A DNA stretch of 35,497 bases from a virus: positions 1-35,497 of the IMG/VR virus record IMGVR_UViG_3300030102_007105. The stretch is one strand, 5' to 3'. The notes below the pieces were generated by a model. That model was not told the DNA's origin. It searched no databases and saw only the letters and a program-made list of their open reading frames with translations. The translations under genes and the position numbers were made by a program. Shown here piece by piece: positions 4,375 through 35,497 of this stretch. How positions within the stretch are numbered: the first letter of the stretch is position 1; every line of letters begins with the position of its first letter.

Positions 4375-4401
4375 GACGGCCCTCCTAGTTGGAGAGCCGC
4401 C
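4375..4401 (-). promoter_or_regulatory. 11-bp hairpin sequestering the O-like gene's ribosome site (attenuator or tR1-like)
   Basis: Read on the minus strand, GGCGGCTCTCC, loop AACTA and GGAGGGCCGTC pair over 11 positions with two G-U wobbles. CTTTT then the ATG at 4369 follow. The right arm contains the AGGAGG Shine-Dalgarno site. It lies between the Cro-like and O-like genes, where lambda has terminator tR1. The short U-run makes it a possible weak terminator as well as a translational block. Confidence 0.6.
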
Positions 4402-4444: not shown

Positions 4445-4699
4445 CTAAGAGTTCTCATCGTTAAGATTTTTAGAATAAATGGAAAACTGTTCGGGTGTGA
4501 TGGTGTTTTTCGCCAAATCACACAAGGCTCCTCGTTTTTTTTCTGGCACAATTCCAGAATTTTTCCAGCTATACAAACATCCTCTGGAAACGCCAAGCGC
4601 TTTCGCAAAAGCTTTATTTGAAAGTCCACTTTCCTTGATTGCTCTTTCTATAAGTTGCTTGTGCATTTTTTTTTGTCTTTGTATAAAAAATTTTGTCAT
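4445..4699 (-). CDS. Cro-like helix-turn-helix regulator
   Basis: The 84-aa protein has an HTH core around SNKAFAKALGVSRGCLYSWKNSG (about residues 27-49), followed by a short acidic tail. Size, divergence from the repressor-like gene and position at the head of the replication/lysis operon are those of Cro. It probably binds the palindromes in 4700-4865. ATG 4699 has no good ribosome site and may be leaderless or weakly translated. ATG 4666 is the alternative start and keeps the HTH intact. Confidence 0.75.
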   Translation of the reverse strand: MTKFFIQRQKKMHKQLIERAIKESGLSNKAFAKALGVSRGCLYSWKNSGIVPEKKRGALCDLAKNTITPEQFSIYSKNLNDENS

Positions 4700-4712
4700 T
4701 TACCGTTTTTTA

Positions 4713-4741
4713 TATTTATCTCATTTCGAAATAGATTTCAA
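4713..4741 (-). promoter_or_regulatory. predicted early-right promoter with operator-like palindrome
   Basis: On the minus strand, TTGAAA (-35) and TAAATA (-10) are separated by 17 bp. The perfect palindrome ATTTCGAAAT (4723-4732) lies between them. It is a natural place for repressor to block the Cro-like/replication/lysis operon. The -10 box is a poor match, so the call rests mainly on position and spacing. Confidence 0.4.
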
Positions 4742-4766
4742 CGAAAAGCACCAAAATTTTTTAATA

Positions 4767-4796
4767 TTGATACAATTAGACCTATTTTGTACAAAA
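4767..4796 (+). promoter_or_regulatory. predicted repressor-operon promoter with operator-like palindrome
   Basis: TTGATA (4767-4772) and TACAAA (4790-4795) are spaced by 17 bp. The -10 box is embedded in the perfect 12-bp palindrome TTTTGTACAAAA (4785-4796). A regulator bound there would exclude polymerase from the repressor/PAS/integrase operon. The start codon at 4866 leaves a leader of about 60 nt. Confidence 0.45.
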
Positions 4797-4865
4797 AAAT
4801 TGCACATATTTAGTAAAAAAGGTAATCTGTTTAAAATTTTTAAACAAAATTACAGGGAAAAGGCA

Positions 4866-5258
4866 ATGCCAAAAATAAATGTAGCGGTAATAAAAAAAAT
4901 AATAAAAGAGAAGTATGGAACAAGGCAAAAATTTACGGAGGCTTTCGGGATCACCAGACAAACATTAGACAGATGGTTTAAGCATGAAGAAATCAATCAA
5001 AAAAAGCTTGAAACCCTAGCGAAGTTTTTAAGTGTCGAGCATTTTGAATTACAAGTGCCAGAAAATATAAATCAAGTTTTGATGGCCGCAATTAGTCAAG
5101 AAATTTTAAAAGTAGAGCAAGAAGAAGGCATCAAACTAACTGCTGAGCAGCATTTAAACTGGTGCGTCTTACTTTATAACAGACACAAGAATGTAGACAT
5201 GAACGAACAAGACTATGATTTGATTAGATATAGTTTTAATCAGTTGAAAAAAGCGTAG
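4866..5258 (+). CDS. repressor-like HTH protein (CI role)
   Basis: The 130-aa protein has an N-terminal HTH: GTRQKFTEAFGITRQTLDRW (about residues 18-37), followed by KLETLAKFLSV. The C-terminal half is helical. It lacks the S24 peptidase domain of classic CI, so it should not be inactivated by RecA-stimulated self-cleavage. ATG 4866 is preceded by GGGAAAAGG; the frame is open further upstream but lacks the composition of a gene. It is followed 8 bp later by the PAS-protein gene, whose Shine-Dalgarno site overlaps this stop codon, so the two are co-expressed. Confidence 0.75.
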   Translation: MPKINVAVIKKIIKEKYGTRQKFTEAFGITRQTLDRWFKHEEINQKKLETLAKFLSVEHFELQVPENINQVLMAAISQEILKVEQEEGIKLTAEQHLNWCVLLYNRHKNVDMNEQDYDLIRYSFNQLKKA

Positions 5259-5266
5259 GAGGGATC

Positions 5267-6232
5267 ATGTTAGAAATAATTAGAAATGAAAAACAACAAA
5301 CGTTTAAAGAAAAATTAGAGAGTCTAAAATTCTGTAAAGCAGACACTACCCCCTGGTGCATTATTGATAAACAAAACGACATGGTAGAGTGCAATCCACT
5401 GTGTTTAGAACATTTAAAAGTAAGTTACAAAGATTATATTGGAACAAACCTTTATGATTGGTGGACGCGCGACTATCCATTAACTCATGATTCGTTAAAG
5501 AAAAATAATTATGTAACAAGCCTCGAAATTCAAGATGCTGAAGGTAATTTTTTAATCGTTAAAGTAAAGATGGAAAAATTTACTCATGACACAAAACACT
5601 ATACTGCAATAAGAGCAGTTAATATCAAACAGCGCCCACAAAGCCCACTCGAAAATTATTTCGACCAATTGAAAGAAATTAATTCTAGTACAAACAGTTT
5701 AGTTGACAACATGCCTTTAGGCCTGTCCATCGTGACTCGTTCTGGGAAGTTTCTTTGGGCGAACGAGGTTTATGCTCAAAAAATAGGTTACGAGCTTTAC
5801 GATTTGCTTTTTAGTCGCAATATCGAGGACATAACAATTCAAAGTTTGGCAGAGGTAAATTTTGACCAAGAAATTATTTCGAGCAGTCATTGGCGCTATA
5901 AGATATATAAGCACAAAAATGGACATAACGTTTCTGCAAAAATTAAAACTAAAAAAACGACATATAATGGTGTTCCAGTATTTTTTTCTGTAGTTGACTA
6001 TACGCATCATGATTGTGAATTAGGAATCGACAAAATTAACAAAAACTCTATTACTAATTTGCTTAACAAAACAGTAAAAATGGAAATTAATATCAAAGTG
6101 CTCGAAAAAGTAGCTTTATTGTTTGGCATGTCTATTCAAGAATTTACTGCTATTGTTTATTGGTGTGAAACAAACGACATGTTAGAAATAGAGGGGATTC
6201 GAAAAAAGAAACAATATGAAATGGGATTTTAA
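5267..6232 (+). CDS. two-PAS-domain sensor protein cotranscribed with the repressor
   Basis: The 321-aa protein has two PAS-fold domains. PAS1 spans about 22-120 (WCIIDKQNDMVECNPLCLEH, then YKDYIGTNLYDW). PAS2 spans about 147-247 (MPLGLSIVTRSGKFLWANEV, then KHKNGHNVSAKIKTKK and GVPVFFSVVDYT). A helical linker joins them, and an unassigned helical tail (255-321) might bind DNA or the neighbouring repressor. No histidine kinase, GGDEF or EAL output domain follows and no signal peptide or membrane span is seen, so it is cytosolic. GGAGGGATC precedes ATG 5267. PAS domains normally sense redox, light, small molecules or protein partners; the ligand here is unknown. A phage lysogeny operon is an unusual place for such a protein. 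Confidence 0.8.
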   Translation: MLEIIRNEKQQTFKEKLESLKFCKADTTPWCIIDKQNDMVECNPLCLEHLKVSYKDYIGTNLYDWWTRDYPLTHDSLKKNNYVTSLEIQDAEGNFLIVKVKMEKFTHDTKHYTAIRAVNIKQRPQSPLENYFDQLKEINSSTNSLVDNMPLGLSIVTRSGKFLWANEVYAQKIGYELYDLLFSRNIEDITIQSLAEVNFDQEIISSSHWRYKIYKHKNGHNVSAKIKTKKTTYNGVPVFFSVVDYTHHDCELGIDKINKNSITNLLNKTVKMEINIKVLEKVALLFGMSIQEFTAIVYWCETNDMLEIEGIRKKKQYEMGF

Positions 6233-6234
6233 GG

Positions 6235-6510
6235 ATGGATAGAACTAAGCTAATTGATAAGATAAGTTTTGATAATCAAAAAATTTCAAGAAGGGAAAGT
6301 GAAATTGTGGTTGACCTTATTTTTGATGAAATTAGCGAAGAAATTGCAAAGGGCGGAAGGGTGGAAATAAGAGGATTTGGCTCTTTTAGCTTGAATGAAA
6401 CACAAGACAAACGCTTCGTAAACCCCAAAACAAAGCAGGAGACTATAATTAAAGGCAAAAAAAAAGCTCATTTTAAACCAGCAAAAGAGCTAAAAAGCCG
6501 CATAAATTAA
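6235..6510 (+). CDS. IHF/HU-family DNA-bending protein
   Basis: This 91-aa protein has the family signature GGRVEIRGFGSFSL (about 40-53) and the DNA-intercalating arm R-F-V-N-P-K-T (60-66). It also has the usual helical dimerisation N-terminus. Length matches IHF subunits. It probably assists integration and excision at attP by bending DNA, supplying in cis what lambda takes from the host; it may also act at the switch region. Its ATG lies 2 bp after the PAS gene stop, so translation is likely coupled. Confidence 0.9.
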   Translation: MDRTKLIDKISFDNQKISRRESEIVVDLIFDEISEEIAKGGRVEIRGFGSFSLNETQDKRFVNPKTKQETIIKGKKKAHFKPAKELKSRIN

Positions 6511-6535
6511 TTTTTCTCTATTAAAAATATAAGAT

Positions 6536-6558
6536 AATGTAAAAAAAACTTTTACATT
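6536..6558. other. AT-rich perfect hairpin downstream of the IHF/HU gene
   Basis: AATGTAAAA (6536-6544), loop aaaac, and TTTTACATT (6550-6558) form a perfect 9-bp inverted repeat. With A/U-only flanks and no GC stem it is a weak terminator at best. It could be an operator for the next gene set or an RNA processing site. Confidence 0.45.
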
Positions 6559-6607
6559 TGAGTTATTTTTGATAATTTAGTTGTGTACAAAAAAAAAGAC
6601 ACAACTA

Positions 6608-6961
6608 ATGCAGACACATCATATCAGCGCAATTTTGAGCGCAACCACCTTTCCAAGCACACAAGTGAGTCGTTGCTCCGTTGACATTGAAATCAGGATG
6701 ATTGTCCAGCAAGACGGAACACAATCAATAAAAACAGAAATCAATGATGAAGTCGGAAAAGCCTTAAATTGGCTTTCTGAAGACGTTACCTGGTATTTGA
6801 TGATTGGTCATAGAGGTCATGAAATTCCCTTAACTTGGTCATCGCTCCACACAGCAAATGGTGATCTGGATCTTGATTATGTTGGTGTCGAACAATTTTT
6901 GTGGGAAGCGCTAGCAAAAGAAGAAAAAGAACAAAGAGAAGAAGGTTATGGGTGCGAGTAA
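6608..6961 (+). CDS. hypothetical protein, 117 aa
   Basis: No family was recognised. The protein is mixed alpha/beta with a Thr/Ser-rich N-terminus, a central EVGKALNWLSEDVTWYLMIG stretch and a very acidic tail (AKEEKEQREEGYGCE). ATG 6608 is chosen; a TTG at 6581 would add nine residues, and neither has a clear ribosome site. It lies directly upstream of the SSB-like gene in the recombination cluster, so a role in that module is possible. Confidence 0.55.
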   Translation: MQTHHISAILSATTFPSTQVSRCSVDIEIRMIVQQDGTQSIKTEINDEVGKALNWLSEDVTWYLMIGHRGHEIPLTWSSLHTANGDLDLDYVGVEQFLWEALAKEEKEQREEGYGCE

Positions 6962-7007
6962 CAAAGAATTTTTAAAAGAAATAATCAACCAATTAGAGGA
7001 TGAAAAT

Positions 7008-7607
7008 ATGGGCTTGAAAGTTACTAGGAGTAAAAACAAGGAAAGAGAAAGTGTGCCGAACGGTACTTATTTTGGACGTTGTTATGGGGTGATTGATTTA
7101 GGAAATCAAGTTCAGAAAAAATTCGAATCGGATGCGACAGAAGTGATACCTCAAGTCGTTTTGCTGTTCGAGCTGAGTCACAAAATGACAGACGGAAAAC
7201 CATTTGGTTTTTCAAGAATTTGTAAAATTTCAAATCACGAAAAATCAAATTTACATCAAATCGTTCAACATTTGACAGGAAAACTATTAAGTGACGAGTC
7301 TCAAAACGGATTTCAATTAACTCAATTGTTAGATAAATTTTGTGTACTCCAATATACAGAAAATCCAAAGCCAGACAGAGACTACCCTATCGTCACTTTT
7401 GGCCCAGCACCCGATGGCACGAAATTCGAAGCCGTTAATAAAAATATTGTTTTTGATTGTGACAACCCGAATCCAGAAATATTAAAAGAATTACCAGAAT
7501 GGATTGTTACCAAAATAAACGAAAGAGTTAAAGATGATGACGCTTTCATTGAAGAAAAAAATTATGACGAGCGGAATCCACCACCATTAGAAGATGTGCC
7601 TTTTTAA
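7008..7607 (+). CDS. phage single-strand DNA-binding-like protein
   Basis: The 199-aa protein begins MGLKVTRSKNKE and has a beta-rich body: VPNGTYFGRCYGVIDLGNQV, then VVLLFELSHKMTDGKPFGFS. It ends LEDVPF, the acidic C-terminal tip by which SSB proteins recruit partners. As I recall, phage proteins with 'PAGTYVARCY.VIDLG' cores sit beside recombination exonucleases and are treated as SSB-like. ATG 7008 is chosen because AGAGGA lies 7 nt upstream. An in-frame ATG at 6948 has its purine site only 2 nt away and would overlap the previous gene. Confidence 0.65.
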   Translation: MGLKVTRSKNKERESVPNGTYFGRCYGVIDLGNQVQKKFESDATEVIPQVVLLFELSHKMTDGKPFGFSRICKISNHEKSNLHQIVQHLTGKLLSDESQNGFQLTQLLDKFCVLQYTENPKPDRDYPIVTFGPAPDGTKFEAVNKNIVFDCDNPNPEILKELPEWIVTKINERVKDDDAFIEEKNYDERNPPPLEDVPF

Positions 7608-7608
7608 A

Positions 7609-7860
7609 ATGAACAACGAATTAGAAAAAAATTTTTTAGTAAATGATATCAATATTTTGTTGATGCAATTAGACGATTTAAAAAAACGTGCGCCTGTATC
7701 GCTCATAAAAATCCAGCAAGAAAAATGGAAAAAGACTTTTAATAAAGATGTAGAAATAAGACAGAAAGAAAAACAAATTGTCGCAAGATTAAAAAATTTA
7801 AAAATTATGGAAATTTTAACAATTGGAATATCAATAGGAAAAATAAATGGCAACTCCTAA
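7609..7860 (+). CDS. small lysine-rich helical protein, 83 aa
   Basis: The protein is basic and helical, beginning MNNELEKNFLVNDINILLMQ with a coiled-coil-like centre (QQEKWKKTFNKDVEIRQKEKQ). No family was recognised. The ATG follows the SSB-like stop by one base; an in-frame ATG at 7594 is an alternative. It overlaps the exonuclease gene by 14 bp. Being sandwiched between SSB-like and exonuclease genes, it could be an accessory recombination factor, but it is far too short for a typical RecT/Beta annealase. Confidence 0.5.
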   Translation: MNNELEKNFLVNDINILLMQLDDLKKRAPVSLIKIQQEKWKKTFNKDVEIRQKEKQIVARLKNLKIMEILTIGISIGKINGNS

Positions 7861-8539
7861 AAAGGGCTATCGATACAAGAATGAAGTTTTACCTGGAACA
7901 ACTACGATTATAGGGCGGTTTAAAGACAGCAATGCTTTGATCAGGTGGGCTTGGAAGCAAGGGCATGAGGGAAAAGAATTGTATGGAGATGACAGCCAAG
8001 CTGGACAAGCGCTTAAAATTGGGACGGCCACTCACTCAATGATAGAAGCTCACATCAATGGCAAAAGTCCAAAGGTGGCACTTAATAAAGAATTGAAATT
8101 AGAAGTGCATAAAAAAAAGGCAAGAACGAGTTTTGAAGCCTATTTGCATTGGGAAAAGTCTAACAACCTTGTGCTACTCTCAAAATTTCAAGAAGTCCAA
8201 TTAGTTAGCCCACAATGGAAATTCGGTGGAACTCCTGATGCAATCGGGAGAATGGGTGATGAGGTGGTGCTGCTTGACTGGAAGACATCAAATGGGATTT
8301 ATTCGGATTACATTATTCAATTAGCCGCCTATCAGCATTTGGTTGATTTCGGTGTCAGGATGGACAATGGCAAAAAATTGCCTTTTGTCTGTGGCAAAGG
8401 CGCTCATCTATTGAGATTCTCAAAAGAAAATGCAGATTTTAATCATGCTTATTTTGCTGATTTATCAGAAGGTTGGGAAACTTTTAAGTTATTCAGGCAA
8501 GCCTATGATTTAGATAAACTTTTGAAGAAACGAACGTAA
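7847..8539 (+). CDS. PD-(D/E)XK recombination exonuclease (RecB/Cas4-like fold)
   Basis: The 230-aa nuclease carries the core motifs: G-T-A-T-H (59-63), E116, GGTPD (127-131), LDWKTS (143-148, metal ligand D144 and catalytic K146) and Q-x-x-A-Y (158-162). The fold is that of lambda-exonuclease/RecB-like phage nucleases used to resect DNA ends for recombination. No RecT/Beta annealase gene is recognisable beside it, so pairing may rely on the SSB-like protein or host factors. It is cotranscribed with the upstream genes. Confidence 0.82.
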   Translation: MATPKKGYRYKNEVLPGTTTIIGRFKDSNALIRWAWKQGHEGKELYGDDSQAGQALKIGTATHSMIEAHINGKSPKVALNKELKLEVHKKKARTSFEAYLHWEKSNNLVLLSKFQEVQLVSPQWKFGGTPDAIGRMGDEVVLLDWKTSNGIYSDYIIQLAAYQHLVDFGVRMDNGKKLPFVCGKGAHLLRFSKENADFNHAYFADLSEGWETFKLFRQAYDLDKLLKKRT

Positions 8540-8603
8540 ATTGACAATGAAGTACAAAAAATGTAAACATTCTCAGAGGAATGTGTTCCTTGGGAGAAAA
8601 AAC

Positions 8604-9662
8604 ATGGAACATTTTAAGGAAATAAGCTTTCGTGAAGTAATTCAAGAAGGCTTGCGATTAAAGAAACAACGTGGAGATAAATTGACAACTCAAGTAACAG
8701 AAGCAGCTATGGCAGACAAGTTAGAAGATTACTTTGGTGATTATGTGCTCAGCTACGCATTTAATAATAAAAAAAGCATTTCGCAACAAAAAATAGCAGA
8801 CTATTACAATCACGTTAGTAAAAGACGAATTTGTGAACAGCCTTGTTGCGCTGGTGTAACTGCTGATCGCGGAAGAACAAAGGACAAAGAAGGTTATCGG
8901 CTTCCGCTGAAACACACTACTATATTGCGAGAGCTGTCATTAGTGAGCGGTTGTATTGAAATGATTCGGGCAGAAAGAAATTTAGATATCCCGAATCCTT
9001 TTCAATCTTTTACAAGGTCTCGCGCAAGACTGACGAGAAATAAAAAATCTTCAGTCATAGCGAAAAGGAATGAGCATTGGACATCGGGCGAAACAAAAGC
9101 ACTTTTGTTAGCCTTACCTCCACTTGCAAAAGATATAGTGCTGTTTGCTTTAAATACAGGCATGAGAAGGAGTGAAATTTGTAATTTGACTTTTGATAGC
9201 AGAACGCAAGGTGACGAATATCAAAGGATTTTTGAAATGGACGGAAACTGGGTTTGTCATTTCGAATCTAAAGATCAGAAATCAAACGCTGTGTCACAAT
9301 GCGCTCTCAATTCAACTGCGATGGAAATCATCAATAGACAAGAGCATGCGGTTGAGCAAGAATTAGACGATTTAGGCTTGCCGATTGCTCATACCTATGT
9401 TTTCAGCTTGAACAGAAAAAAAATTCCTGTTTGGTGGCTGACACAAAAATTCGCAGAGGCCCAAAAAGCTACGGGTTTGAAGCATAGAACATTGCAACAA
9501 ACACGGAAAACTTGCGGTCAAAGGATGCTTGAAGCTGGATGTTCGATTGAAGCAGTGCAATCTCAACTTCGTCATTCATCGGTGACAACCACGCAAAGTT
9601 ATTACATCGTGCCTAGCATTGACCACGCTGCAAAAGCAGTTGAAAAAATCAACATCAATTAA
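8604..9662 (+). CDS. int: tyrosine integrase
   Basis: The 352-aa site-specific recombinase should drive integration and excision. Catalytic-domain motifs are LNTGMRRSEICNL (box I Arg188), QQTRKT (Arg301, with Gln at the usual first His position), LRHSS (His324) and TTQSYY (nucleophile Tyr333). The core-binding region carries an unusual CEQPCC cluster. ATG 8604 is chosen because GGGAG lies about 8 nt upstream. The open frame reaches a TTG at 8541, giving 21 more residues. It is the last gene of the repressor/PAS operon, so its expression is tied to lysogeny. Confidence 0.9.
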   Translation: MEHFKEISFREVIQEGLRLKKQRGDKLTTQVTEAAMADKLEDYFGDYVLSYAFNNKKSISQQKIADYYNHVSKRRICEQPCCAGVTADRGRTKDKEGYRLPLKHTTILRELSLVSGCIEMIRAERNLDIPNPFQSFTRSRARLTRNKKSSVIAKRNEHWTSGETKALLLALPPLAKDIVLFALNTGMRRSEICNLTFDSRTQGDEYQRIFEMDGNWVCHFESKDQKSNAVSQCALNSTAMEIINRQEHAVEQELDDLGLPIAHTYVFSLNRKKIPVWWLTQKFAEAQKATGLKHRTLQQTRKTCGQRMLEAGCSIEAVQSQLRHSSVTTTQSYYIVPSIDHAAKAVEKININ

Positions 9663-9867: not shown

Positions 9868-9907
9868 AAAAAAAAAGGGGAGGGTTTAAAACCCCTCCCA
9901 TTTTTTT
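9868..9907. terminator. bidirectional intrinsic terminator
   Basis: A GC-rich hairpin (GGGGAGGG-tttaaa-ACCCCTCCC, one bulged C) is flanked by nine A's on the left and seven T's on the right. It therefore terminates in both directions. It sits between the integrase (plus) and the last late gene (minus), exactly where two long convergent operons meet. Confidence 0.88.
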
Positions 9908-29479: not shown

Positions 29480-30562
29480 TTATTTAATGCTTTCGCTTGT
29501 GACCTCTGTAAAAGATAGAATAAATTCAGCAGCCACCGCAGGTATAATCGTGTTGCCTATACCGGTAAGCGTATTTGCGTACGACCATTTGTGGGAATTG
29601 CCCTCTCGATCCAAGACCGTGGGTAGCCCATCAACCAAAGGCTGAACTTCGGATTCAAGCGGTATCGGACGCGTTTTTCCGTCCTTACATTTGACCCACT
29701 CAACTGCTTCCCAGTCAACTGCGTTGCAACGTCTAACGTGTCGGTTGACACTTTGCCGTTCCTCAACCGACCGCCCTCGTAACCGCTTTTGTAATCGCGT
29801 GCGCTGGGTGTCGGGCATGTTGTCGACAACCTTGCCATGTCTGCTAGATTTGCTCCAAAGGTCAAATTCGGATTCGTCTTTGAGATTCTTTGACCCTTTT
29901 CGTTCAACGGTCGTGGCCCTCCTTCTCCGTCCGTGGTTCTTGGTGTGGGCCATGTGTGAACGCTCTCCCTTAGATTCGAACAACCGCCGTTCTTCCTCGC
30001 TTCCTTCAATTCCTCTTGACTTCGGATCTGATTGCACCTTGCTCCGTCCATCGTTTGTGGAGTCGGCCACGAACCAGAGCCGTTGCCGTTTGTGATAGGC
30101 TCCGACAGTAAATCCTGACAGAACTGCCGACGCGAAGGCGTAGTCTTGAGACTCAAAATCTGTTGCGACTGCATCAAGCCACCCGAACCCAATCGCTCCC
30201 GCAACCTGTTCGCCAAAGACTGTTGGAGGGCTACACTTTTCGATGAGCCTGAACCACTCTGGCCAGAGGTGACGCTCGGAGTCACTTGCACCCCTTTTTT
30301 TTCCTGCGACTGAAAAACTTTGACAGGGGCAACTACCTGTCCAAACAGGTCTCTCATCACTCCATCCTGCGAGTCTGAGCGCATAGCTCCATCCTCCGAT
30401 TCCTGCAAAGAAGTGACACTGTGTGTATCCTTGTAAGTCACTTGGCGTTACCTCTTGTATCGGCCTGTTGTCCACATCGCCATCAGCAATTAACCCCTCT
30501 GAAATAAGATTGCGTAGCCACTCAGCGGCATGTTGATCAAACTCGTTGTAATAAACCGTCAT
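29480..30562 (-). CDS. DNA cytosine-C5 methyltransferase (solitary)
   Basis: This 360-aa enzyme is predicted to transfer a methyl group from S-adenosylmethionine to cytosine C5. Motif I is FFAGIGG (51-57), motif IV is SCPCQSFS with catalytic Cys80, motif VI is GEQV (117-120), motif VIII is HKRQRLWFVA (157-166), and the last motif is GIGNTIIPA near 335. The variable region (about 167-290) is Arg/Ser-rich and should set the target sequence. No restriction enzyme is adjacent, so it probably protects phage DNA. Its central coding region also holds a long second frame (see 29557-30441). GC content here is higher than in neighbours, hinting at recent acquisition. Confidence 0.9.
   Translation of the reverse strand: MTVYYNEFDQHAAEWLRNLISEGLIADGDVDNRPIQEVTPSDLQGYTQCHFFAGIGGWSYALRLAGWSDERPVWTGSCPCQSFSVAGKKRGASDSERHLWPEWFRLIEKCSPPTVFGEQVAGAIGFGWLDAVATDFESQDYAFASAVLSGFTVGAYHKRQRLWFVADSTNDGRSKVQSDPKSRGIEGSEEERRLFESKGERSHMAHTKNHGRRRRATTVERKGSKNLKDESEFDLWSKSSRHGKVVDNMPDTQRTRLQKRLRGRSVEERQSVNRHVRRCNAVDWEAVEWVKCKDGKTRPIPLESEVQPLVDGLPTVLDREGNSHKWSYANTLTGIGNTIIPAVAAEFILSFTEVTSESIK
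29557..30441 (-). other. long overlapping frame inside the methyltransferase gene (W-P-T-P repeat protein candidate)
   Basis: A 294-codon open frame (GTG 30441, internal ATG 30384) lies wholly within the methyltransferase gene on the same strand. Its translation carries SWPTPQTMDG, TWPTPRTTDG and TCPTPSARDY at intervals. It ends with RLNPKFSLWLMGYPRSW. I recall many database proteins with repeated WPTP and '(F/W)..WLMG(Y/F)P..W' motifs linked to phage cytosine methyltransferases. It may be a true overlapping gene, or a by-product of conserved methyltransferase-frame motifs such as VADSTNDGR and PLVDGLPTVL. Confidence 0.3.
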
Positions 30563-30778: not shown

Positions 30779-31597
30779 TTAAATGCCGCACATACCTTCA
30801 CATTCATCTAAAAGACTCATTTGACCTGCATTTTCTAAAGTAAAGAAATCGACTTCATCTATTGGTTTGCAAGATCGATGTAAAAATAAATCGCCTTTTA
30901 CACCGCCTAACCTTCTTATTGATTTATCAAAATCAACAATGTCTTTCCATTCATTTTTGTCACCATTTTTTAAATTTAACCATTCTTTTTCACTATGGAA
31001 AGGGCAACATAAACACGCTGATCGGGGCGGTTTTGGAAAATTGTTTTTTTCCATCCATTCTAAGCAATCACCTCTACGGATTCGTTTCTCTATTAGCGGA
31101 TAAACATTTCTTCTCCAAGGTTCTACAAAAGGAACTTTCATGCGTTGAATTTCGTCATAAGAAATTCCATACCAAAGATCAATGACATGTTCTTTTGGAG
31201 CACGTTGACGAAATTTTAAACCAAGAATTTCTTGTCGAGTGTATTTAGTAACAGGTTGTATTTTATATTCTGCAGTGCATTGTCGTTGGAGCATCCCCAC
31301 TTTTTTTGTATCATTATCGAGAGTAAAATAAGGTAAAGCAGCAGCTCTATTTTTAGCCCTTACTCTAGTTTTTATTTGATCATCTCTTAAGTTTCCCCTA
31401 CTTACTTTTTCTACTGGAAACGGTAATTGTTTTTCTAACCATTCAAGCCATTTATAAACTGCTTTTGGTTCATAACCTGTGTCTGCAAAAATTGCGACAT
31501 CAGGCATAGGTTCAAATTCACCTCTTGCCGCCATTAACGCCAGAGTAGACGATTGAACTCCAGCTCCTAAACTTAAAATTGTTGTAATTTTTGACAT
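30779..31597 (-). CDS. PAPS-reductase-like ATP pyrophosphatase
   Basis: This 272-aa protein of the adenine-nucleotide alpha-hydrolase (PP-loop) superfamily has SLGAGVQSST (9-18), the partner strand IFADTGYEP (37-45), RQCTAEYKIQP (Cys107) and a C-terminal cysteine cluster ACLCCPFH (194-201). Phages often carry relatives annotated as PAPS reductase/FAD synthetase. True PAPS reduction is unlikely without the canonical C-terminal catalytic ECG motif. Nucleotide or tRNA thiolation, or DNA modification, are alternatives. Start ATG 31597 has GAGG 9 nt upstream. Confidence 0.72.
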   Translation of the reverse strand: MSKITTILSLGAGVQSSTLALMAARGEFEPMPDVAIFADTGYEPKAVYKWLEWLEKQLPFPVEKVSRGNLRDDQIKTRVRAKNRAAALPYFTLDNDTKKVGMLQRQCTAEYKIQPVTKYTRQEILGLKFRQRAPKEHVIDLWYGISYDEIQRMKVPFVEPWRRNVYPLIEKRIRRGDCLEWMEKNNFPKPPRSACLCCPFHSEKEWLNLKNGDKNEWKDIVDFDKSIRRLGGVKGDLFLHRSCKPIDEVDFFTLENAGQMSLLDECEGMCGI

Positions 31598-31608
31598 ATT
31601 TATTAACC

Positions 31609-31764
31609 TCAAACCCTCACATCTACCTGAGTAGTCTTAGGCTTAACAGAATCCTCCCTCTTAACCAAATCATCAGCTTTAGACTCAACAGGACGCTCAT
31701 TGCGAGGAACTAAAGGCTCCCGATGATTACCCCTATCAATGTGAGCCACTACTAATTCAGACAT
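31609..31764 (-). CDS. small charged protein, 51 aa
   Basis: It begins MSELVVAHIDRGNHREPLVP and ends VKPKTTQVDVRV. It is charged and Pro-containing, probably disordered. It fills the gap between the basic protein and the PP-loop gene in the same direction, with its stop 11 bp before the next start. No family recognised. Confidence 0.5.
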   Translation of the reverse strand: MSELVVAHIDRGNHREPLVPRNERPVESKADDLVKREDSVKPKTTQVDVRV

Positions 31765-33596: not shown

Positions 33597-34136
33597 ATGC
33601 AAACAGCTATTAAAAAAGAAAATCTCATAGTAAATCGTATTTATGTAGCGTGCCTATCAAGTTATAACGCTGGAAAATTGCACGGCACTTGGATCGATCT
33701 CGATTACAAATCAGTTGATGAAGTCGAAAAAGAAATCGAACTTATGTTAAAAGCTTCAAGCGAACCATACGCCGAAGAATACGCAATACACGATTTCGAA
33801 GGAATTAGGTGTGAAGAAAATACCGATATTGCAACCATAGTTGAAAAAGTCGAGACATTAAACGAATTAGATGACAGCGAAAAAACAGCGTTTTTAGCTT
33901 TTCTTGATTATGAAAATAACGGCACGTTAGAGAATTTTAGGGATTCTTACCAGGGCCATTGGGACAATGAAAAAGAATATGCAATTCACCTTTTTGATGA
34001 ATGTTACTTGGATGAAATGCCAGAACATTTAACGCACTACATCGACTATGAAGCTTTTAGATATGATCTCTTTTTGGATCATTTTTCGATTGATGCAAAA
34101 CCCTACGGCGTTTTCGTATTTTCGAACAATTATTGA
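33597..34136 (+). CDS. ardA: ArdA-type antirestriction protein
   Basis: The 179-aa, very acidic protein is a DNA mimic that should bind and inhibit type I restriction enzymes. Family marks are IYVACLSSYNAGKLHGTWID near the N-terminus, EYAIHDFEGI in the middle, and LTHYIDYEAFRYDLFLDHFS then YGVFVF near the end. Length is that of full ArdA (about 165-180). AAGGGG lies about 8 nt before ATG 33597. Expression from the early accessory operon fits protection of entering phage DNA. A methyltransferase in the late operon complements it. Confidence 0.88.
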   Translation: MQTAIKKENLIVNRIYVACLSSYNAGKLHGTWIDLDYKSVDEVEKEIELMLKASSEPYAEEYAIHDFEGIRCEENTDIATIVEKVETLNELDDSEKTAFLAFLDYENNGTLENFRDSYQGHWDNEKEYAIHLFDECYLDEMPEHLTHYIDYEAFRYDLFLDHFSIDAKPYGVFVFSNNY

Positions 34137-34230: not shown

Positions 34231-34821
34231 ATGAGAGTAAATAATTTCAAAATCGAAAAAGCTGTAGCAAAAAACGATGTCCGCGATTACCTGGAACATT
34301 GTTTTTTAGATTGTGAGCAAAAAAAGCTTGTTGCAACAAATGGCCACATAATAACCGCGTTGAATGTTGAACTAGACGAAGATGACACTACAGGCTTCAT
34401 TCCTGTAGAAGCGATCATTCGCGAGCGGAAAATTGCTAAATTAGCCAAACGTGAAAAACTACAGATCAAAGCAAACGGAACGCTAATTTTGTCTAACGGC
34501 GATACAATGTCACGACCTACTGGTCATAAATCATTCCCAAACTATCAGCGCGTGCTTAATGAGAAGTGTTATCGCAACAAGCAGGTTGTGAGTGTAGGGC
34601 TAAACGCTAAGTTATTGTATGAATTGTCACAAACTATAAGTGCTGATAATTGCGTAATTTTAGAGATTGAAGTTAATGATCCCAAAAGTTTAACGGCGAA
34701 CTCACAAGAAAACAATAATTCAAATTTTAAAGCGCAGTTCGATAAAATTAACGACTCCATTAGAGTAAGCTCTTACTCCGATAGGGAAAGCGATTCTTTG
34801 ATCATGCCTCTACGCTCATAA
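34231..34821 (+). CDS. short sliding-clamp-like protein (DnaN-related)
   Basis: This 196-aa protein resembles phage proteins annotated as DNA polymerase III beta-clamp-like. It contains CEQKKLVATNGHIITALNVE (compare the ATDGHRL motif of bacterial beta), then TTGFIPVEAI, a basic IRERKIAKLAKREK stretch, FPNYQRV and a late SADNCVILEIEV strand. It is far shorter than bacterial beta (about 366 aa), near the size of two-domain trimeric clamps such as T4 gp45. No phage polymerase exists for it to serve, so it may hold host polymerase on phage DNA or compete with the host clamp. GGAG lies 8 nt upstream; a strong terminator follows. Confidence 0.68.
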   Translation: MRVNNFKIEKAVAKNDVRDYLEHCFLDCEQKKLVATNGHIITALNVELDEDDTTGFIPVEAIIRERKIAKLAKREKLQIKANGTLILSNGDTMSRPTGHKSFPNYQRVLNEKCYRNKQVVSVGLNAKLLYELSQTISADNCVILEIEVNDPKSLTANSQENNNSNFKAQFDKINDSIRVSSYSDRESDSLIMPLRS

Positions 34822-35195: not shown

Positions 35196-35447
35196 ATGAA
35201 TGATTCACTAATAGTCGATATTACTTTTGGAAACGAATATATTTACAATGGTGCTGAATTCGAACAATATTTAAGAGACAGCTTAGAGAGAGAAGGATTT
35301 ATATTAGGAAAATTAAAATATGCGCCGCATGGGAAAGGTGGCAGTATTTTTATTGGAGATGAATTAATTACTGATCAATCTCATGTAGTTCATCAAGCAA
35401 TTGACCGAGCCGAAGAATGGGCAAAAGAAGATGAAATGAGTCAATAG
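35196..35447 (+). CDS. hypothetical protein, 83 aa
   Basis: It begins MNDSLIVDITFGNEYIYNGA and ends AIDRAEEWAKEDEMSQ. It is an acidic alpha/beta protein with no recognised family. AGGAGG lies about 9 nt upstream of ATG 35196, a very strong site. Its 3' end is repeated at 1-50 because of the contig overlap. It is followed 22 bp later, across the join, by the 57-aa basic protein. Confidence 0.68.
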   Translation: MNDSLIVDITFGNEYIYNGAEFEQYLRDSLEREGFILGKLKYAPHGKGGSIFIGDELITDQSHVVHQAIDRAEEWAKEDEMSQ

Positions 35448-35497
35448 ATCAAGCTCAAAAGGTTAAACGATGCAATCATTGTGTAAAAATTCATCGC
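35400..35497. repeat. terminal direct repeat (contig end copy)
   Basis: It is identical to 3-100. Joining the two copies closes the circle and restores the genes cut at the window ends. Confidence 0.9.
35470..35497 (+). CDS. 5' fragment of the 57-aa basic protein gene (duplicate of 73-100)
   Basis: The first nine codons of the gene given whole at 73-246 (MQSLCKNSS), present here only because the contig ends overlap. Confidence 0.8.

Follow-up and report, generated by a model that had tools for sequence, protein, structure and literature searches.

Most well-understood prophage induction proceeds via DNA damage, and a few phages, such as VP882, read host signals. In the phage genome analysed here (virus record IMGVR_UViG_3300030102_007105, the whole 35,497 bp of which formed the window), a gene for a 321-aa tandem-PAS protein (5267..6232, + strand) follows the gene of a 130-aa HTH protein, which raises the question of what such a protein would do beside a phage repressor. 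The pairing of the repressor and PAS genes is real, and the role of the PAS protein in induction is proposed here from the combined analyses. With a probability of about 0.4, we favour the reading in which the repressor is non-cleavable and the tandem-PAS protein, made together with it, serves as its signal-dependent partner.

The 321-aa protein is laid out as an N-terminal helix (residues 1-19), PAS1 (about 28-120), a linker helix (about 127-143), PAS2 (about 144-248), and C-terminal helices (about 254-318). As claimed in the original prediction, it is established by profile to contain two PAS folds: in Pfam, PF00989 matched residues 28-81 (26.0 bits, cut-off 22.6, E 9.4e-6) and PF13188 matched residues 144-189 (24.4 bits, cut-off 21.8, E 2.6e-5), and none of seven shuffled copies gave a PAS match. 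The outcome named beforehand as refuting, the absence of a PAS profile match in either region, was thus not borne out. Within the PAS1 coding region (5348..5626, +; residues 28-120), PF13426 gave a sub-threshold match to residues 31-117, and within that of PAS2 (5696..6010, +; residues 144-248), TIGR00229 fell just under its cut-off at residues 144-243 (22.3 vs 22.9 bits). Scanned singly, PAS1 and PAS2 scored 19.6 and 20.7 bits, respectively, just below the respective cut-offs, so both domains are divergent. The AlphaFold2 model of the protein, built without an MSA, had a very low pLDDT of 32 and a PAS-like order of strands and helices in both regions; when this model was compared with the PDB by Foldseek, tandem-PAS proteins led (FixL at E 3e-4, then LOV-PAS, NifL, and DosP), as local matches with a TM of about 0.12. 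On this low-confidence model, a PAS fold is likely. Profile searches of the 321-aa protein recognised neither a catalytic domain of the kinase, cyclase, or peptidase type nor a DNA-binding domain, so that the prediction of a PAS protein lacking a kinase or cyclase output domain was correct; HisKA and HATPase gave no match in Pfam, and only about 70 residues lie beyond PAS2. At E up to 1, Pfam returned PAS plus weak HTH matches only and no peptidase, and PHROGs returned no match. The codon usage of the PAS gene fits that of the other phage genes.

The record ends, positions 1-100 and 35398-35497, are near-identical (99/100 positions match), and contig DIAJ01000013.1 (35,360 bp), held in a MAG labelled Flavobacteriales bacterium UBA5081, is the same phage in circular permutation, with an identity of 99.7-99.9% over the compared stretch. 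In all likelihood the record therefore represents a complete circular genome, known from two assemblies, between which the PAS gene differs by one silent nucleotide, leaving the protein identical. The phage looks temperate, and host flanks are absent from its genome in both assemblies, the DIAJ01000013.1 contig appearing as a free circular permutation and not as an insertion. Because the contig is free, the MAG label counts as evidence of binning alone, and no host is claimed; the MAG may either be contaminated by the phage or be linked to it as host. Terminases similar to the one encoded here, at about 40-44%, occur in P22-like and other phages. Shine-Dalgarno usage across the genome is mixed, no tRNA genes were found in the 35,497-bp record, the attachment-site search of the phage genome returned AT-rich noise only, and nothing among the results points to a marine origin.

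Elsewhere in the genome, a 294-aa ORF (29557-30441, -) lies wholly inside the gene of a C5-cytosine methylase (29480-30562, -) in a different frame of the same strand. This inner ORF matches a separate family, phrog_1008 (E 2e-21), and, over 96% of its length and at 34% identity, other phages at sites annotated methyltransferase; the methylase frame has an odd GC3 (0.50) and odd codon usage. Judged by these sequence features, the two look like an overprinted gene pair. An ArdA antirestriction protein is encoded at 33597-34136 (+; PF07275, E 4e-32), and beside it a 196-aa protein (34231-34821) matches families annotated as RusA-like resolvase and as polymerase processivity factor. A weakly PAPS-reductase-like protein, with PF01507 below cut-off, is encoded at 30779-31612 (-), and a holin of the gene-transfer-agent type (498-917, -; PF11351, E 7e-24) adjoins a candidate M15 peptidase endolysin.

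The coordinates of the locus agree with the predicted placement of the PAS gene 8 bp after an HTH gene without a cleavage domain: the repressor gene stops at 5258 and the PAS gene begins with ATG at 5267. The Shine-Dalgarno sequence AGGAGG of the PAS gene (5257..5262, +) overlaps the repressor stop codon, and its own stop at 6232 is separated by 2 bp from the ATG (6235) of a gene for a 91-aa HU/IHF-family DNA-binding protein (6235..6510, +; PF00216, E 3e-24). This gene and the integrase were both found downstream, as had been foreseen. The recombination and integration genes (6608..9662, +), delimited from the ORF list and from Pfam and PHROG matches, comprise a gene of no assigned product (6608-6961), a gene for a phrog_862 protein (6948-7607), a second gene of no assigned product (7594-7860), and genes for an exonuclease (7847-8539) and a tyrosine integrase (8541-9662; PF00589, E 2e-15), all on the + strand. 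A bidirectional terminator-like hairpin detected by hairpin search (9878..9899) closes the rightward unit.

Two perfect palindromes, TTTTGTACAAAA at 4785-4796 and TGTTTAAAATTTTTAAACA at 4828-4846, lie in the divergent control region (4700..4865) as candidate operators. The 97 bp that separate the HU/IHF-family gene from the recombination genes (6511..6607, +) form a possible second operator or promoter and contain, at 6581-6592, TTGTGTACAAAA, a copy of the 4785 palindrome with one mismatch. Four copies of the motif within two mismatches occur in 207 bp, a count reached in 0/2000 shuffles; as the motif was drawn from the tested region, the test is post hoc and the enrichment is only suggestive.

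Because two HTH genes diverge from the control region, the one that keeps lysogeny is not self-evident. The rightward one (4866..5258, +) encodes the 130-aa Cro/C1-type protein, for which HTH_3 (E 3e-4) and HTH_26 gave weak HTH-type matches with nothing else recognised, and which matches phrog_4779 and phrog_8, both transcriptional regulators. The leftward one (4445..4699, -) encodes an 84-aa HTH protein with weak phrog_409, phrog_35, and P22_Cro-like matches. Their roles could be the reverse of those favoured here, with the 84-aa protein as the lysogeny repressor, the HTH-PAS-HU-exonuclease-integrase genes as an early lytic operon, and the PAS protein as a factor of early infection that might, for instance, adapt transcription or the metabolism of the host. 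Consistent with such a reversal, several weak phage matches of the 84-aa protein are annotated as immunity repressors, the recombination genes sit in the rightward unit, and a strong terminator-like hairpin (4375..4401, -; an 11-pair stem with 8 G-C pairs) lies after the 84-aa gene, between it and the DnaD-like replication gene, as would fit a monocistronic repressor. However, the best phage match of the 84-aa protein, gp45 of Burkholderia phage BcepC6B (E 2e-3), is encoded before a DNA polymerase/primase and diverges from a 244-aa cI (gp44; HTH plus peptidase S24, E 2e-22) on the exonuclease arm, and the same plan is found here, the 84-aa gene preceding the DnaD-like replication gene and the 130-aa gene lying on the exonuclease/integrase arm. 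The shared arm plan argues that the 130-aa protein is in the CI position; its S24 half would then be missing, and the PAS gene follows it. The 130-aa protein is thus probably a shortened CI acting as repressor and the 84-aa protein the Cro-position one, and a reversal of roles is improbable, the least likely of the readings considered. That the lysogeny role is assigned to the 130-aa protein and not to the 84-aa protein by synteny with one distant phage nevertheless counts against the partner reading.

Peptidase S24 was absent from the whole phage genome, the same model being positive in 14/14 control genomes. Lambda-type CI combines an HTH with peptidase S24, whereas the 130-aa protein has the HTH alone. 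The predicted lack of a self-cleavage domain in this repressor is thus supported. However, Gifsy GfoR-GfoA, 186 Tum, and N15 AntC exemplify LexA-controlled antirepressors that act against non-cleavable repressors, so that a lack of S24 by itself leaves room for RecA/LexA control (PMC3121763). These systems resemble the present one in that the repressor is not self-cleaved and a second phage protein decides; the Gifsy antirepressors are encoded outside the immunity region, whereas the candidate partner here is a sensor-fold protein encoded beside the repressor.

A different output was considered for the C-terminal helical region (residues 254-321; 6026..6229, +), a candidate output or partner-binding domain. 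The PAS protein may be a one-component transcription factor in which the PAS domains sense and the C-terminal helices bind DNA, after the manner of VqmA or PpsR, acting on a phage promoter (activating or repressing it), such as that of an antirepressor gene, and not on the repressor; the products of the HTH and PAS genes could then operate as paired factors, as xre and luxR do in Aeromonas phages. When residues 247-321 were modelled alone by AlphaFold2, four helices were obtained with a pLDDT of 60 and local values above 70, so that the C-terminal 65 residues can be described, at low confidence, as a helical bundle. Such a predicted helical region would suit a one-component factor, as would the weak matches to HTH_26 (E 0.005-0.04) and to HTH_26 and HTH_19 together (E 0.005-0.06), and phages provide precedents in VP882 VqmA-Qtip (PMC12802170, PMC8284805) and in the XRE-LuxR-smORF modules (PMC10432266). 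However, one shuffled sequence reached a wHTH E of 0.0085, and since the real scores are no better, the C-terminal HTH similarity is at chance level. Furthermore, residues 251-321 have a net charge of -0.2, no fold match was retained, and GerE, Fis, and winged-helix families gave no match in profile searches of the PAS protein. A designed alpha/alpha toroid, the sole PDB match to the C-terminal model, was dropped as a common helix arrangement. The original suggestion that the C-terminal 65 residues bind DNA therefore found no backing, and profile scores, fold search, and charge neither support nor exclude it. A one-component factor is accordingly considered unlikely, and it ranks third among the readings, behind the partner reading and the cargo reading discussed next.

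In lambda, rexAB lies beside cI, and the slot behind the CI gene is the classical cargo position. The PAS gene lies directly behind the CI-position gene and might thus be lysogenic cargo of the rexAB kind, co-expressed with the repressor, serving the dealings of the prophage with its host through superinfection exclusion or an adjustment of host physiology, and taking no part in the lysis-lysogeny switch. No exclusion family, Rex included, was matched in the Pfam scan, which speaks against this explanation, and no conservation of the pair was found that would tie the PAS gene to the repressor, which speaks for it. The searches were of differing sensitivity, tblastn against phages and plasmids being more sensitive than the IMG/VR and GTDB scans. 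By tblastn, the PAS protein had no match at E<0.1 among 50,697 phages, and up to E 10 only chance matches; no homologue was found among 72,556 plasmids. The scan of IMG/VR by 8-residue patterns, which detects close relatives only, returned none, and the search of GTDB genome contigs, with the same reach, returned the same phage only. No homologue was present in 46 genomes of the order of the MAG, in 395 of its class (Bacteroidia), or in 14 virus records found through TerL. TerL alone retrieved relatives from IMG/VR, the closest of which (83%) are fragments ending before the repressor-PAS region; the repressor, the integrase, the DnaD-like protein, the exonuclease, the phrog_862 protein, and an 827-aa protein of the structural region retrieved none. 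The PAS_8 profile had no match in 10 TerL-related records or in Pelagibacter phage Baldr. The repressor-PAS pair is thus known from one phage population only, and the finding of no homologous pair in any other phage means that no conservation of linkage can be invoked, which counts against the partner reading. Cargo remains unlikely in our assessment and is placed second to the partner reading.

NifL is a tandem-PAS sensor that controls co-encoded NifA by direct binding. Tandem PAS is common to NifL and the PAS protein, and a NifL-NifA structure was among the Foldseek matches of the latter; NifL, however, carries kinase-like domains and targets an activator, whereas the PAS protein has no such domains. 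A short repressor with a separate inactivator is known from ICEBs1, in which the 127-aa ImmR is encoded in tandem with ImmA, co-directional with int (PMC8960796). The arrangement here is alike in its short repressor, separate co-directional gene, and int on the same strand, but ImmA is a metallopeptidase, whereas the PAS protein consists of PAS domains and matched no peptidase family. PAS sensing in lysis-lysogeny is likewise already known, since VP882 VqmA, in which PAS is joined to a LuxR HTH, switches on the antirepressor Qtip (PMC12802170, PMC8284805). VqmA is, like the PAS protein, phage-encoded and cytosolic with PAS, and it lets VP882 enter lytic induction in response to a small molecule, with no need for DNA damage. 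VqmA has one PAS domain and a clear LuxR/GerE HTH (41.9 bits), acts through Qtip, lies about 4 kb from cI, and has host homologues, whereas the PAS protein has two PAS domains and no GerE and is encoded 8 bp from the repressor gene. BLASTP found no significant similarity between the two, and phrog_27555, the VqmA family, was not matched; by sequence, the PAS protein is not a VqmA. Among PHROGs, the PAS probes that were used matched, besides the VqmA family, two families at E below 0.001 (a kinase-labelled one and one with no assigned function), and PAS proteins seem uncommon among phage families. In Aeromonas phages, XRE-LuxR-smORF modules, distinct from cI, drive a small antirepressor ORF (PMC10432266); common to both is an operon that joins an XRE-type HTH gene to the gene of a ligand-sensing regulator, which in those modules is LuxR and not PAS. 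PpsR/CrtJ proteins have multiple PAS domains and a C-terminal HTH; the PAS protein shares the former, and its C-terminal HTH matches score at chance level. In BLASTP, the PAS protein was not similar to the 130-aa repressor. A repressor-PAS gene pair did not come up in open-literature searches.

Considering these results, we propose the following scenario. The repressor and PAS genes would share one transcript. The cytosolic PAS protein would sense a small molecule or redox state, or dimerise with a partner, and may pass the signal to the repressor by direct contact, made either by its C-terminal helices or by one face of a PAS domain. The PAS protein would be a conditional partner of the repressor, as NifL is of NifA or ImmA of ImmR, and induction would depend on the PAS-sensed signal instead of RecA-driven self-cleavage. 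The partner reading draws on the reality of the PAS domains, the 130-aa HTH-only repressor with no S24 in the genome, the HTH plus S24 protein at the same position in BcepC6B, the operon spacing with a Shine-Dalgarno sequence overlapping the stop codon, the ICEBs1 ImmR-ImmA-like layout, and the identical protein in a second assembly. A stricter form of the scenario, a split CI in which a separate tandem-PAS protein replaces the SOS-sensing half, binds the repressor, and ties lysogeny directly to a redox, gas, or metabolite signal inside the cell, is rather doubtful. Under the partner reading, the phage may time its exit from the host by a signal other than DNA damage, and, if this is true, a repressor without its damage-sensing half, coupled with a PAS sensor of its own, would offer a simple system in which to probe the other cues that phages use.
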